Source: Acetobacteraceae bacterium
Lineage (GTDB): Bacteria; Pseudomonadota; Alphaproteobacteria; Acetobacterales; Acetobacteraceae
NCBI GenBank assembly: GCA_947474705.1
Contig: CANJJS010000041.1
Location: 1 to 41,844, forward strand
DNA length: 41,844 bases
Direction: 5' to 3'
Shown here: piece by piece, positions 17,306-27,421 of the stretch
Position numbering within the stretch: the first letter of the stretch is position 1
Layout of the letters: every line of letters starts with the position of its first letter
Translations under genes and position numbers: made by a program
Notes under the pieces: generated by a model
What the model saw: the letters and a program-made list of their open reading frames with translations, nothing else
Told to the model about the DNA's origin: nothing
Databases searched by the model: none

Positions 17306-19108
17306 ATGACCGCCTATACCGTGACCGCGGGTGCGACCAGCAGTGGCGTCGTTCTCGCGAACGGCGACGAACTCGATGTGTTGTCCGGGGGCGTCGCGAT
17401 CGACACGGTCGTCGGCAGCGGTGGCGCGGCCTATGTTTACGATGGCGGGGTCGCGAATTCCACCGTCGTTGGCGATGGCGGTGTGGCCTACGTTTATAAC
17501 GGCGGCGAGATCGACGGCACCGTCGTCGAAGGTGGCGGCACCGAATATGTTTATCATGGCGGCCTCGCCCGAGGAACCCAGGTGGGTTTGGGTGGCGCGG
17601 AGATGGTGCTGTCGGGCGGGACGGCGAGCGCCACTTCCGTTGGGGATGGCGGGGTGCAGGTGGTCGTGACCGGCGGTGTCGCGGCGGACACGTTCGTCGC
17701 CTCGGGCGGCACGCAAACGATCTCGGGCGGGCTCGCGACGTTCGCCAATCTGTCGGGCGGCACGCAGAGCGCGCTGTCCGGGGGGATCGTCAGTGGCACC
17801 GTGGTGGGCGCCGGTGGCACCGAATGGGTGGTTTCCGGGGGCATCGCGCGCGGCACCGTGGTGTCCAGCGGTGGGACCGAAACCGTGGCGGGCGGGTCCG
17901 CCAGCGGGTCCGTCGTCAGTGGCGGTGGCTTCATGGCCGTGACGGCGGGCGGTGTCGCGTCCGGCACCACCGCGGTGGATGGCGGCCGCCTCTATGTCGA
18001 ATACGGCGGTATGGGGTGGGGTACGTCGATCGGAAGCGGCGGTTTCGAGTATATTTTCACCGGCGGGGTGGTTTCGGGTACCTCCGCCGGCTCGGGCGGG
18101 ATCGAACGGGTTGAGTTCGGCGGCGTCGTGATGGGCGCTCTGGTCAGCGGCGGCACGCAAAATGTGACTTATGGCGGCACCGCGAGCGGGTCGGTTTTGC
18201 GCGATGGCGGGCTGCAATATGTTTATTCCGGCGCCAACGCGGTCGATACGGTGGTCAGCAGCGGCGGAATTCAGGCGATTCAGGGCGGGCAGGCCGTCAG
18301 CGGAACGATTCTCAATCCTGGCGGCGCGATCGACCTGCCGGATTTCGTGTTTGGCGGCGGTCTGACCGCGGAGCTCGATACGATCGCGGGTGTGTTGTCG
18401 GTCAGCCGGGACGGCAATTTGTACGAGCAGACTTTCGGCGGCGGTTATGCGAATCTCGCCGTCCAGGCGGGCCCGGATGGCGGGACGGGGACCATGATCG
18501 GTCTGTCGGCGGCGCCGCAATGTTTCGTGGCGGGGACCCGAATCGCGACCGAACACGGTCAGGTCGCGGTCGAGGCGCTCCGGCCGGGCGATCGCGTGTT
18601 GCTGCAGCGTGGCGGCATGGCGCCAATTGTTTGGATTGGCCATCGTTATGTGGATTGCGCCCGCCATCCGCGTCCGCGAGAGGTTTGGCCCTTCCGGATC
18701 GCCGCCGGCGGGTTTGGACCCGGGCAGCCGCGGCGCGATCTGTATTTGTCCCCGGATCACGCGGTTTATGTCGAAGACGTGCTGATCCCCGTAAGGTTCC
18801 TCGCCGCACCGGGCGAGATCGAGCAGGAGGCGCGAACGGAGGTGTCTTATTTCCATCTCGAACTCGCCGAACACGATATCGTGCTGGCGGAGGGCATGGC
18901 CGTGGAATCGTATCTCGACACTGGCGACCGGTCGCGGTTCGATAATGGCGGTGCTGTCGTGGCGTTGCATCCGGATTTTTCCGCGCGGGCGTGGGATGCG
19001 CTCGGATACGCGAAGCTGGTGACGACCGGACCGGAGTTGGAGGCGGTGCGCCAGAGCGTGGCGCGCGCGCGGGCCTGGCGGACATTGCCCGCGGCGGGGA
19101 GCGTCTGA
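17306..19108 (+). CDS. Surface protein with strand-loop-strand beta repeats and C-terminal Hint domain
   Basis: 600 residues. Residues about 10-350 are some 17 repeats of roughly 19-20 residues built on GG-x-A-x-GT-x-V-x-x-GG, the strand-loop-strand repeat found in autotransporter passengers (right-handed beta helix). Residues about 398-560 are a Hint_2-type domain: it opens CFVAGTRIATEHG, has LRPGDRVLLQRGG, and ends with LYLSPDHAVYVEDVLIPVRF, whose His is the usual catalytic one. No N-terminal signal and no beta-barrel are present; related proteins are thought to leave by a type I or unknown route. In this family the Hint domain may self-cleave after its Cys, but there is nothing C-terminal that looks like an extein. 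The ribosome site is within a hairpin. Confidence 0.9.
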   Translation: MTAYTVTAGATSSGVVLANGDELDVLSGGVAIDTVVGSGGAAYVYDGGVANSTVVGDGGVAYVYNGGEIDGTVVEGGGTEYVYHGGLARGTQVGLGGAEMVLSGGTASATSVGDGGVQVVVTGGVAADTFVASGGTQTISGGLATFANLSGGTQSALSGGIVSGTVVGAGGTEWVVSGGIARGTVVSSGGTETVAGGSASGSVVSGGGFMAVTAGGVASGTTAVDGGRLYVEYGGMGWGTSIGSGGFEYIFTGGVVSGTSAGSGGIERVEFGGVVMGALVSGGTQNVTYGGTASGSVLRDGGLQYVYSGANAVDTVVSSGGIQAIQGGQAVSGTILNPGGAIDLPDFVFGGGLTAELDTIAGVLSVSRDGNLYEQTFGGGYANLAVQAGPDGGTGTMIGLSAAPQCFVAGTRIATEHGQVAVEALRPGDRVLLQRGGMAPIVWIGHRYVDCARHPRPREVWPFRIAAGGFGPGQPRRDLYLSPDHAVYVEDVLIPVRFLAAPGEIEQEARTEVSYFHLELAEHDIVLAEGMAVESYLDTGDRSRFDNGGAVVALHPDFSARAWDALGYAKLVTTGPELEAVRQSVARARAWRTLPAAGSV

Positions 19109-24345: not shown

Positions 24346-25203
24346 TCAGGCGGTGCGCGTGGCGCCGTCGGGGGCGAAGTCGTCGCGGAGGTGTTCGATG
24401 GCCCTGGGGTCGCCAAGGTCTTCGAGGCGTACGATGCCGAGGGGCCGGGCCGTGTCCGGGCCGGGTTGGCGGCGGGCGGCGAAGCGGGCGCGGGGGAAGA
24501 TGCCGCGGCGGCTGGAGACCAGCAGGTATCCCTGAAAATATTGAACCGGCTGGCGGCGGTCGGTTTCCGGCAGGGTCATTTCAATCGCGCCGAATTTGAC
24601 GGCGGTTCCGCCGATTTCCTTGGTCAGGAAGTAGATCGACGGTCCGTGGACGAACAGGTATCCGTGGTCGATTTGTTCGAACGGCATGTCGCCGTCCGGT
24701 GTGCGATGGGATTGAGATTCTCGCGCGGTCAGGCCGCCTTCCGCTTCCTCGATCCAAAAGGACGATACTCGCACGCCATTTTCGAGACTGACGCGGTCGT
24801 GATCTCGCCGCATGAAGGTGTATTTTCCGGGCATGGCGGCGCGCATGTCGTCCATTCGGCGTTTCGCGCCGGTGTCGGTGCCGGCGGCGAACATGGCGCC
24901 CAGGGCCTGGCCGAATCCTTGGCTGGGGGTGTCGGGTTCGAAGGGGGTTGGCGCGAAGTAGGCGGCGTAGGCGGGTGTGGCGCGCAGCATATCGTGAATG
25001 GCGCGCAATTCCCGGATTTTGGTGATGTGTTCGCCGCGCGTGAATCGGTCGAGTGTCGCGCGGGAGATCGCGAGGTTATCGCCTCTGGTGCGTTGGCGGT
25101 TGAACAGATCGACGATGGTCTGGCTGGTCAGGCGTTCGGTTCGCGCGAGTTGCCGGAGTGTTTCGCGGAAGTTTGGCGCGTCGCGGATGGGGTCGTATGG
25201 CAT
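24346..25203 (-). CDS. Unrecognised protein with N-terminal helical (HTH-like) domain, possible regulator
   Basis: 285 residues, cytoplasmic, no signal or membrane segment. Residues about 8-75 are helical and could form a helix-turn-helix of the XRE-like kind (FRETLRQLARTERLTSQTIV, then ISRATLDRFTRGEHITKIRE). A less conserved linker is followed by a C-terminal domain of about 150 residues with strand-rich text (PGKYTFMRRDHDRVSLENGV, FEQIDHGYLFVHGPSIYFLT, QYFQGYLLVSSRRGIFPRAR). I know of no firm family. It could be a transcriptional regulator with a sensor domain, controlling itself and the CDGSH gene. The other side of its promoter region is the recombinase-like gene. Confidence 0.7.
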   Translation of the reverse strand: MPYDPIRDAPNFRETLRQLARTERLTSQTIVDLFNRQRTRGDNLAISRATLDRFTRGEHITKIRELRAIHDMLRATPAYAAYFAPTPFEPDTPSQGFGQALGAMFAAGTDTGAKRRMDDMRAAMPGKYTFMRRDHDRVSLENGVRVSSFWIEEAEGGLTARESQSHRTPDGDMPFEQIDHGYLFVHGPSIYFLTKEIGGTAVKFGAIEMTLPETDRRQPVQYFQGYLLVSSRRGIFPRARFAARRQPGPDTARPLGIVRLEDLGDPRAIEHLRDDFAPDGATRTA

Positions 25204-25679
25204 GGTCTTCTCCGCCGTTGCTCGGATTTGAGCAGATTTCCGGGCGGATTTCCAGGTGCATTGGCAAGTCTCGGTCGAATTCGATCGACAGTGAGCGCAT
25301 TTGTCGCTTCCCTTTCACATAACGGAAACCTTATTTGCATTCGGATACCGGTGTGCATCGGAAACTGCCCGCGAAGCTGAATCCGGTCTCAAATTCGGAG
25401 GGTCGCCGGGGCGGCGGCGATGCCGTCGGCGTATGTCCGCCGCGGAGATATTTCGTTATCGATATATCAACGAAGGTTACGATGGCGCCATCTGTCCGGT
25501 AGTCTGGATAATAGGTGCGTCTCCGGTGTTGGCATTCGCGTTTTCTCTTGTCCATCCGTTGCATATGCCCGGAAATATTCGAATGGGACGATTTAATGGT
25601 GGCGCGATGCCATGGTTTGATGTATCGAGCGGTAGTCGGGCGATTCGTTCACGGCCCTTCTCATAATGGAAAGAACACA
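25204..25679. promoter_or_regulatory. AT-richer divergent region with dyad and repeated motif
   Basis: 476 nt without a supported gene, visibly poorer in GC than the rest of the window. It holds an inverted repeat TTCGTT-N11-AACGAA (25452-25474) whose spacer contains ATCGAT and TATATC, and two similar motifs: CCTTTCACATAACGGAAAC (25311-25329) and CCTTCTCATAATGGAAAG (25656-25673). The latter abuts the recombinase-like start. The region separates the putative regulator from the recombinase-like gene and may be the binding site of one or both products. Confidence 0.45.
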
Positions 25680-26213
25680 ATGATCCACGGGTACATGATT
25701 TCGACGTCCGACAGCCAGGATGTCGCCGCGCAACTTAAAGCCGCCGGTTGCGAAAAGGTTCATCGCGACACGCGCGGGACAGCGAAGACGGAGCGGGTTC
25801 GCCGCCGGCGCGCGATCGAGCAATTGAATGCAGGCGATACGATCGTCGTCGCCCGTCTGAATCAGATCGCCGATTCGACGCTCGATCTGGTGGCCACGCT
25901 AAATGCGATCGCCGAGCGCAAGGCCAACTTCCGCTCGCTGGCCGACGCATGGGCCGACACCACCCAGCGCGGGGTTCGGCTGATGAGCGTGTTGGAGGGT
26001 ATCACCGCGTTCGAACGCGATGTTCGCAGTGCCCGTACCGAAGCCGGTCAGGCGCGTGCCGTCGCCCGTGGCGTGAAGCTTGGCCGTAAGCCGAAGCTGA
26101 CGCCGAAGCAGGAGCAGGAAGCGTTGCGCCGCCGCAAGCGGGGCGAGACCCTGGCGACGATCGCTGAGTCCTTCAACGTCAGCCACAGCACGATTTCGCG
26201 CCTCGTCGCCTGA
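25680..26213 (+). CDS. Serine recombinase-like protein with substituted active site
   Basis: 177 residues with the full layout of a small resolvase/invertase: N-terminal catalytic fold, long helix (FERDVRSARTEAGQARAVAR), arm GVKLGRKPKLT and a C-terminal Hin-type helix-turn-helix (GETLATIAESFNVSHSTISR). The body follows the common family (AQLKAAGCEKV, FRSLADAWADTT). The active-site positions do not: where the family has GYARVST this protein has GYMISTS (residues 4-10), so the conserved Arg is Ile and the nucleophile Ser position is Thr; where the family has DRLARS it has NQIADS (61-66), losing two more Arg. It is therefore probably unable to cut DNA but still able to bind it. A 55-codon in-frame extension upstream is not credible; the ribosome site is weak (GGAAAG). 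Confidence 0.85.
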   Translation: MIHGYMISTSDSQDVAAQLKAAGCEKVHRDTRGTAKTERVRRRRAIEQLNAGDTIVVARLNQIADSTLDLVATLNAIAERKANFRSLADAWADTTQRGVRLMSVLEGITAFERDVRSARTEAGQARAVARGVKLGRKPKLTPKQEQEALRRRKRGETLATIAESFNVSHSTISRLVA

Positions 26214-26228
26214 TCTCGTGTCCGGTCC

Positions 26229-26252
26229 GATCCCGGTCAGCCGACCGGGATC
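26229..26252. terminator. Hairpin shared by convergent genes
   Basis: Perfect 9-bp stem GATCCCGGT / ACCGGGATC around CAGCCG. It overlaps the last codons and stop of rnd on the minus strand and follows the recombinase-like stop by 15 nt. There is no T-run on either side, so its strength as a terminator is uncertain. Confidence 0.45.
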
Positions 26253-27421
26253 AGCCTGATCCGGCGTCCGTCGACGCCCAGGGCGACGCGGCCTTCGCGA
26301 AGGGCCATGGCGTCGTCGCCGAAGATCGCGCGCCGCCATCCGTGCAGGGCGGGAATATCGCCGGTTTCATCCGTCGCGATGCGGTCGATGTCGTCCGAAG
26401 AGGCGACCAGTTTTGGCGCCACCGCGTGCTCCTCGCACCGCGCCGCCAGCAAGAATTTTAACAATTGCACAAGGGCCGCGGACGGTTTGACCGTATCGCG
26501 GGGGCGGCCGAGCGGCGGCAGCGCGGATTCGGCCAGTGCCAAAGTTCCGGCGATGGCTTCCAGCAACGACACGCCGGTTTTGCCTTCCGCGAAGCCCCGG
26601 GAAATGCCGCGGGCGCGTGAGAGGGACTCCGCGTTCATGGGCGCGATCGCGGCGATTTCCATCAGCGTTTCGTCTTTCAGAAGACGTTGCCGGGGAATGT
26701 TGATGCGTTGCGCCTCTTGTTCCCGCCAGGCCGCGAGCACGCGCACCAATGCCAGAAACCGCCGGTTGTTGCCGCGCACTTTCAAACGTTCCCACGCCGT
26801 TTCTGGGTCGGCGCGATAGGTCGCGGGATTGGTCAGGATGTCCATTTCCTCCGCGACCCAACTCAGGCGGCCCTCTTGCTCCAGCCGGGCGCGCAACTTG
26901 CGGTAGACGGCGCGCAGCCATGTCACGTCCGCGGCGGCGTATTCCATTTGCGCCGGCGATAAGGGGCGCGCCGACCAATCGCTGAACCGGTGGGCTTTGT
27001 CGATCGTGCCGCCGGTCAGGCCCGACACCAGCGAGTCGTAACCGACCTGATCGCCGAATCCCGCCACCATCGCGGCGACCTGTGTGTCGAACAGCGGGGT
27101 GGGAACGGCGCCGAAACGCTGGACGAAGATTTCCACGTCCTGCCGTGCCGCGTGAAACACCTTGGTCACGGCGGGATTGGCCATCAACGCGGCCAGAGGC
27201 TCGATATCGATGCCGTCGGCCAAGGTGTCGACGACCGCGACCTCGCTCTCGCCCGCGAGCTGCACGAGGCACAGCTCGGGATAATAGGTGCGTTCCCGCA
27301 TGAATTCGGTGTCGACGGTCACGAAGGTTTCGCGCGCGAGACGGGCGCACAACGACGCGAGCGCGTCCGTGTCGGTGACGACGGTCGGCGGCGGAAAGTC
27401 GGGGGTTTGCGGTCGGGCCAT
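26237..27421 (-). CDS. rnd: Ribonuclease D
   Basis: 394 residues. A DEDD-family 3'-5' exoribonuclease that trims tRNA and other small RNA precursors. The exonuclease motifs are visible: ExoI VTVDTEFMRERTYYPELCLV (near 34), ExoII FHAARQDVEIF (near 88), ExoIII YAAADVTWLRAVYRKL (near 161, with the Tyr four residues before the Asp, the DEDDy type). HRFSDWSARPLSPAQMEYA is family-typical. The C-terminal half holds HRDC-like helical domains (RFLALVRVLAAWREQEAQRI). Length fits alphaproteobacterial RNase D. Monocistronic, with a long palindromic repeat directly upstream and a 10-bp palindrome ACACGCGTGT at 27433-27442 in its leader. Confidence 0.95.
   Translation of the reverse strand: MARPQTPDFPPPTVVTDTDALASLCARLARETFVTVDTEFMRERTYYPELCLVQLAGESEVAVVDTLADGIDIEPLAALMANPAVTKVFHAARQDVEIFVQRFGAVPTPLFDTQVAAMVAGFGDQVGYDSLVSGLTGGTIDKAHRFSDWSARPLSPAQMEYAAADVTWLRAVYRKLRARLEQEGRLSWVAEEMDILTNPATYRADPETAWERLKVRGNNRRFLALVRVLAAWREQEAQRINIPRQRLLKDETLMEIAAIAPMNAESLSRARGISRGFAEGKTGVSLLEAIAGTLALAESALPPLGRPRDTVKPSAALVQLLKFLLAARCEEHAVAPKLVASSDDIDRIATDETGDIPALHGWRRAIFGDDAMALREGRVALGVDGRRIRLIPVG

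Follow-up and report, generated by a model that had tools for sequence, protein, structure and literature searches.

A small serine recombinase-like protein beside rnd, predicted to have lost DNA cleavage and to have kept its DNA-binding half under selection

A gene at 25680..26213 (+ strand) of the 41,844-nucleotide stretch of contig CANJJS010000041.1 analyzed here (the window) encodes a 177-residue small serine recombinase that is predicted to be catalytically dead from its open reading frame, Pfam matches, orthologue alignment and fold match. Loss of cutting and conversion under selection are well supported, and the role of the protein is most likely that of a sequence-specific DNA-binding regulator or an architectural protein. 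With moderate confidence, we favor the reading that a resolvase turned into a non-cutting DNA-binding regulator or DNA-bridging protein and was kept beside rnd. Small serine recombinases are among the best-studied DNA-cutting enzymes, and in Sin the same protein serves both as cutting and as purely architectural subunit; if selection kept the binding half in a lineage that gave up the cutting half, the two roles would be separated there by nature. The target of such a protein is directly testable, since the res sites and half-sites of its intact relatives can be read from sequence.

Both sequence profile and fold place the product in the family defined by the Pfam Resolvase and HTH_7 domains: PF00239 and PF02796 match at 3e-17 and 1.8e-07, each above the gathering score, and an AlphaFold model built from 16 sequences (mean pLDDT 82, pTM 0.60) finds its best PDB match in gamma-delta resolvase on DNA (1gdt; E 3.5e-11, TM 0.64), with further gamma-delta, Sin and Tn3 resolvases ranking next (Sin 2r0q, E 2.1e-10). 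A preliminary description had reported a recombinase-like reading frame here with its body, hinge and HTH motifs kept and had proposed that its structure be modeled; we confirm its coordinates and find the reported motifs in the translation (MIHGYMISTSDSQ..., VARLNQIADSTLDL, GVKLGRKPKLT and NVSHSTISR), and the model returned the resolvase fold. The C-terminal HTH domain spans residues 141-176 (26100..26207, +), as judged from Pfam, the model and the recognition helices of relatives. We take the ATG at 25680 as the start because a GGA-type ribosome-binding site is kept in the three orthologues (GGAAA at 25668..25672, +, conserved as GGA(A)) and strong conservation starts there.

Four active-site residues are replaced in 3/3 orthologues (Arg8 by Ile, Asp67 by Asn, Arg68 by Gln and Arg71 by Asp), with numbering that we take to be that of gamma-delta resolvase. 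The loss of the three arginines had been noticed before and is confirmed in every orthologue; that of Asp67 comes in addition. All four residues are present in gamma-delta/Tn3 resolvase (1gdt), the best structural match, and they are near-invariant in intact relatives (Arg8 93%, n=29; Asp67 94%, Arg68 97% and Arg71 97%, n=33), as is Ser10 (97%, n=30). In the family alignment, the former active-site strand/loop 1 (residues 1-10; 25680..25709, +) reads MIHGYMISTS in place of the GYARVST type, and the former Asp67/Arg68/Arg71 motif (residues 57-70; 25848..25889, +), VARLNQIADSTLDL, is identical in 3/3 orthologues with codons that differ synonymously; MIHGYMIS and LNQIADST are common to all three. 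The family set comprised 64 distinct proteins that match over at least about 140 residues with no stop, 3 dead and 61 others, and NQIADS occurs in 0/61 of the latter. Excerpts of a published report on Tn3 resolvase (PMC4499144) place R8 and R68 in contact with the scissile phosphate and propose the same for R71. Because all three phosphate-binding arginines are lost, we infer that the protein no longer cleaves DNA. The nucleophile is a less uniform case: it had been described as Ser changed to Thr, which stands for two orthologues and fails for the third, the Ser10 column reading Thr, Ser and Thr with a Ser one residue earlier in 3/3. HMMER pairs this segment differently, setting IST against the VST of a DNA invertase, which keeps a Ser (residue 8) and deletes Arg8. 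No pairing restores Arg8, since the first 16 residues hold no Arg in any of the three.

The earlier view that the changes lie exactly at the active site proved too narrow. In a comparison set of 33 other proteins with at least 40% identity, 79 positions are conserved at 85% or more (the only two cut-offs tried for this count), and 21 of them differ from the consensus in all three orthologues. The replaced positions, at 6-10, 30-34, 42, 61-65 and 96-124, all belong to the catalytic domain and helix E, amounting to 21/60 conserved positions in residues 1-127 vs. 0/19 in residues 128-177 (Fisher p = 0.0019). In helix E (model residues 94-129; 25959..26066, +; placed by alignment and model), nine family-conserved positions are replaced in 3/3 orthologues (96, 99, 106, 108, 115, 116, 117, 122 and 124), and the orthologues lack three residues in or next to helix A. 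A few other relatives show isolated active-site changes, for example L036 and L048 with Ile for Arg8 and L013 without Arg68 and Arg71, but none of them has the full set. Copies that are decaying elsewhere look different, with stops (L024, L045, L118) or with the HTH lost (L044, L049). L036 and L048 (G008 C116 and C87) read GYAIVST with their remaining motifs intact, and the nearest matches there to R1, the res model introduced below, lie about 600 and 800 bp upstream, not at the start codon.

A search for homologues with NQIADS-like substitutions, as the preliminary description had advised, found two orthologues, which places the gene in 3/33 genomes of the genus: the window's own, G027 (87% identical; SHWL01000168.1, a Lake Baikal metagenome assembly) and G004 (82% identical; CALFNB010000470.1), both alignments being ungapped. 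No further orthologue was found in 397 family genomes (best 8 candidates per genome, E up to 1e-45), in genome contigs beyond the two known (next best 47%) or among the plasmid matches listed (best 58%). Phages and viral contigs gave none either, their best matches reaching 36% (among those listed) and 35%, respectively, and PADLOC gave no match for the gene. All three genes are convergent with rnd (ribonuclease D), which adjoins the dead gene in the window (26237..27421, −) and is its neighbor in 3/3 genomes, across gaps of 23 bp (window), 32 bp (G027) and 161 bp (G004); the other flanking genes differ among the three loci. rnd was found in 31/33 genomes, and of the 30 loci taken only three have a relative of the dead gene by tblastn, 5 of the 27 others showing less than 600 bp 3' of rnd (one of them 1 bp). 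An inverted repeat read at the convergent 3' ends of the two genes (26229..26252, no strand assigned), GATCCCGGTC-AGCC-GACCGGGATC, is possibly a terminator stem that they share. The divergent upstream gene (24346-25203, −; 285 aa) has no Pfam, NCBIfam, PHROG or PADLOC match and no homologue in the other 32 genus genomes at E up to 1e-5; as it is present in 1/33 genomes, it was rejected as a partner of the dead protein.

In the resolvase tree (36 sequences; bootstrap not fully settled) the three dead proteins form one clade (100/100), whose stem measures 0.75 and whose tips measure 0.03, 0.06 and 0.14; the clade branches at an unresolved fork inside a group of resolvases from the same family (96/92). 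In the rnd tree (30 sequences) the three hosts likewise form one clade (100/100). Pairwise dN/dS (Nei-Gojobori, 500 bootstraps) is 0.111, 0.104 and 0.094 for the dead gene (bootstrap limits 0.05-0.18) and 0.133, 0.127 and 0.171 for rnd; the values are approximate because they come from three sequences only, with completeness of 80% and 89% for two of the genomes and a dS close to saturation. A dN/dS of 0.09-0.11, the measure also suggested in the preliminary description, indicates purifying selection on the gene. Each replaced motif carries 2-5 synonymous differences per pair with identical residues. Across the three orthologues the replaced positions are no more invariant than ordinary ones (17/21 vs. 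69/98, p = 0.43; motif 57-70 alone, p = 0.03; residues 1-8, all invariant, alone, p = 0.14), and the claim of purifying selection therefore rests on the whole-gene dN/dS. These data indicate a burst of change on the clade stem followed by purifying selection, that is, one old loss of catalysis rather than decay. Conversion from a recombinase, as proposed earlier, is thus upheld over decay because two other species share the substitutions, dN/dS is about 0.1, the dead proteins form a single long-stem clade and the DNA-binding domain is untouched. The marks expected of exaptation, namely vertical inheritance, purifying selection and a fixed neighbor, are seen in 3/3 genomes, in one clade and beside rnd.

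We examined 33 upstream stretches, 30 from other genes and three from the dead ones. Plasmid "recombinase family proteins" are among the nearest intact relatives (Acidiphilium plasmids, 57-58%, among the matches listed). A res-like element, picked by eye, precedes the start codon in 17/30 of the other genes (L002, L007, L008, L010, L011, L041-L043, L046, L047, L049, L084, L113-L116 and L119), within about 90 bp of it, in Acetobacteraceae and one Aurantimonadaceae genome. Its parts are an inverted site I of 26 bp (GGTGCATAATTC-AA-GAATTATGCACC type), a spacer and a pair of direct half-sites spaced 13 bp apart, the second of which ends about 6 bp before the ATG; three Methylocystaceae plasmids (L142-L144) have a shifted form. 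The arrangement, in which an inverted site I is joined by a direct-repeat site II, is that of the res of Sin, whose structure (2r0q) is also a fold match, and excerpts of the Sin literature describe the site II motifs as head-to-tail (PMC2428073). A CATAAT overlapped by site II may be the resolvase promoter. We built a sequence model of the element, R1, from the 17 sequences; it scores 61.6 bits at an intact paralogue on contig C45 of the window's own genome, itself among the 17. Near the dead gene R1 found no res site in the window, L082 or L083 with filters off and E up to 10, the best score in the window being 3.5 bits at 2036-2065. The dead genes are therefore without a recombination site as well as without the residues for cutting.

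The half-site follows the residue after NVS (or DVS) in the recognition helix: His goes with GGTGCA in 9/9 cases, Gln with GATGCA in 2/3, Pro with GTTTCA in 2/2 and Ala with GTTGCA in 1/1. As exceptions, two Ser cases are irregular, the Gln case L015 has no clear half-site there, L046 (NVHNST) has GGTGCA, and L014 and L018 have no such site. There is an apparent link between this residue and the second base of the half-site (His with G, Gln with A, Pro or Ala with T). The recognition helix of the dead protein, SHSTISRL, is the same as in nine intact resolvases, whose proximal half-site is GGTGCA in 9/9; because the dead protein has His after NVS, GGTGCA is its predicted half-site.

Searches for an operator or target of the dead protein in the window's own genome, G027 and G004 were negative or unspecific. 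The region at 25204-25679 had been called AT-rich, which is true in a mild sense (53% GC vs. 65% for the window). That the protein acts on this region of its own found little support, as neither a res-like site nor a sigma-70-like promoter (+ strand, 25150-26350) was detected. A short block upstream of the gene, AGTCGGGCGATTCG (25634..25647, +; 33-46 bp before the ATG), keeps 10/14 positions in the three genomes vs. at most 8 in 300 shuffles that kept single-base composition only. Its word, ATCGGNCGANNCG, has 12 matches in the window vs. 14.9 expected; with one mismatch allowed, each of the three genomes has 94-140 such words and two genomes that lack the gene have 83 and 95, and the counts in all five exceed those of the reversed-pattern control (20-44). 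With similar words common in window and genomes, the block was rejected as an operator or regulon marker. GGTGCATAA has 3 one-mismatch matches in the window vs. 4.3 expected, none near the dead gene. GGTGCA itself occurs once upstream of the gene in the window, at a distance of 425 bp, and is absent from the upstream stretches of the other two orthologues. GGTGCA-type direct-repeat sites (up to 1 mismatch) and GGTGCA-type site I (up to 3 mismatches) number 0 in the window's own genome and 0 in G027, and occur 3 times and at 10 places, respectively, in G004. Loose inverted GGTGCA pairs vs. the control pattern number 2/1 in the own genome, 3/6 in G004 and 5/0 in G027, and 2/4 and 4/8 in G030 and G018, which have no dead gene.

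In the genus survey, where the best 130 candidates per genome were scored and the counts are lower bounds, R1 matched in at least 23/33 genomes and gave at least 75 matches at E up to 1e-4, counting those linked to a resolvase. Stand-alone res-like sites, which sit between unrelated genes without a resolvase, are present twice in the window's own genome (G000 C102:8981-9057 and C89:14760-14841), twice in G027 (C67:3148-3233 and C16:979-1041) and on many contigs of G004, which has 18 R1 matches in all. Among 18 sites compared, similarity is almost wholly limited to the 80-bp element, except at two beside intact resolvases. Eleven of the 75 R1 matches break off at one and the same model position (81, within the last half-site), which may mean that the promoter part was not kept, and the broken start of a resolvase lies 3' of at least one stand-alone site (L155). 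Stand-alone sites do not track the dead gene because they are also found in genomes that lack it, and res-like sites were for that reason rejected as its regulon. Those of the window's own genome and G027 have half-site types other than GGTGCA.

Based on these results, we propose that an Acetobacteraceae plasmid-type resolvase, of presumed plasmid origin, settled beside rnd in the common ancestor of the three species. On the clade stem it lost Arg8, Asp67, Arg68 and Arg71 together with the conserved pattern of helix E, and since then it has been inherited under purifying selection; by comparison with its relatives, the ancestral res site at the gene would have been lost as well. The resolvase fold is predicted to be kept, and a dimer would bind DNA through helix E, the GRKP hinge and the HTH, as conservation suggests: residues 110-146 (later helix E and hinge) are invariant in 37/37 positions among the three orthologues and residues 131-177 in 44/47. 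Such conservation fits a DNA-binding role without proving it, and the C-terminal half could instead be conserved for folding or protein contacts. By analogy with non-cutting Sin at site II, the protein would most likely act as a transcriptional regulator or a DNA bridge at chromosomal or incoming sites. According to excerpts of PMC2428073, Sin has no catalytic activity when bound at its regulatory site, where it pairs DNA by way of its C-terminal domains, and a protein reduced to a Sin-like binding half could by that analogy still bind and bridge DNA. Sin binds site II without cutting but cuts at site I, whereas the dead protein is predicted to bind only and has no detected res.

Other readings were weighed against this one, and the most serious, which we regard as doubtful, would have the dead protein keep its ancestral half-site specificity and either occupy the res sites of incoming plasmids and mobile elements or mix with their resolvases; in both cases it would block multimer resolution or silence the resolvase promoter, which probably overlaps site II. 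It draws on the recognition helix shared with nine GGTGCA resolvases, on the plasmid genes among the closest intact relatives (57-58%, Acidiphilium, matches listed), on the res-like sites in at least 23/33 genus genomes and on the restriction of changes at conserved positions to the catalytic domain and helix E. Set against it are the window's own genome and G027, which have no GGTGCA-type res site within the mismatch limits and carry other half-site types, the lack of an orthologue among the plasmid matches listed (best 58%) and the lack of a PADLOC match. A specific form, a dedicated dead subunit with GGTGCATAA specificity that serves as a chromosomal dominant-negative guard and acts in trans on the res of invading plasmids, is a shade less probable again; if true, it would block multimer resolution of these plasmids or repress their resolvase promoters.

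It is improbable that the protein still works as a recombinase through an unusual active site, with Ser8 or the Thr/Ser at position 9 as its nucleophile. Ser or Thr does occupy the nucleophile column, the alternative pairing keeps a Ser8 that is invariant in 3/3, and residues that we presume equivalent to Arg45, Arg119 and Arg125 are kept; however, Arg8, Arg68, Arg71 and Asp67 are all replaced in 3/3, and no res-like site lies near the gene (E up to 10, filters off; window, L082, L083). Marginally less probable still is that the gene is kept for its transcript or place, through convergent transcription with rnd and a terminator stem common to both genes, in which case the protein would be incidental. 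Convergence with rnd in 3/3 while the other surroundings differ, and the inverted repeat at 26229-26252, would agree with this, but an amino-acid constraint at a dN/dS of about 0.1 is not expected under it, and the gap in G004 is 161 bp. That the gene is a pseudogene or a sequencing artefact is hardly credible: catalytic loss in one copy would fit, and other copies in genus and family are visibly decaying, but here three assemblies agree over an ungapped 177 residues with no stops and a dN/dS of about 0.1. Sequencing error is very unlikely because three separate assemblies agree at these codons, and with two orthologues carrying the same motifs both error and pseudogene were rejected. The preliminary description had named as contrary evidence close homologues with the normal Ser/Arg set alongside scattered damage in this copy, or sequencing errors, and we found neither.

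The non-cutting DNA-binding protein that we favor can be set beside several known systems. Acetobacteraceae plasmid resolvases have the same domain order but are plasmid-borne; among relatives of this group the Ser/Arg set is intact, and many have the identical recognition helix and many a res site before the gene. One from Acidiphilium cryptum pACRY04 (WP_011930816.1, "recombinase family protein") is 57.5% identical over 99% of the query. The dead gene is an exapted mobile-element enzyme, and such conversions are of a known kind. TldR, for example, is an inactivated nuclease. Excerpts of one report describe TldR proteins as phage-encoded RNA-guided transcription factors (PMC13418256). Exapted bacterial mobile-element proteins likewise went from enzyme to cellular or regulatory roles in excerpts of PMC8987985, where the serine recombinases are invertases that are still active, unlike the dead protein. 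For a conserved dead small serine recombinase we found no precedent among the papers that the literature searches listed, as judged largely by titles and abstracts.

Elsewhere in the window, at 17306-19108 (+), the translation reads as a protein in which a long, repeated SGG-rich stretch precedes a segment with CFVAGTRI and VEALRPGDRV, which we take from these motifs to be Hint-like.
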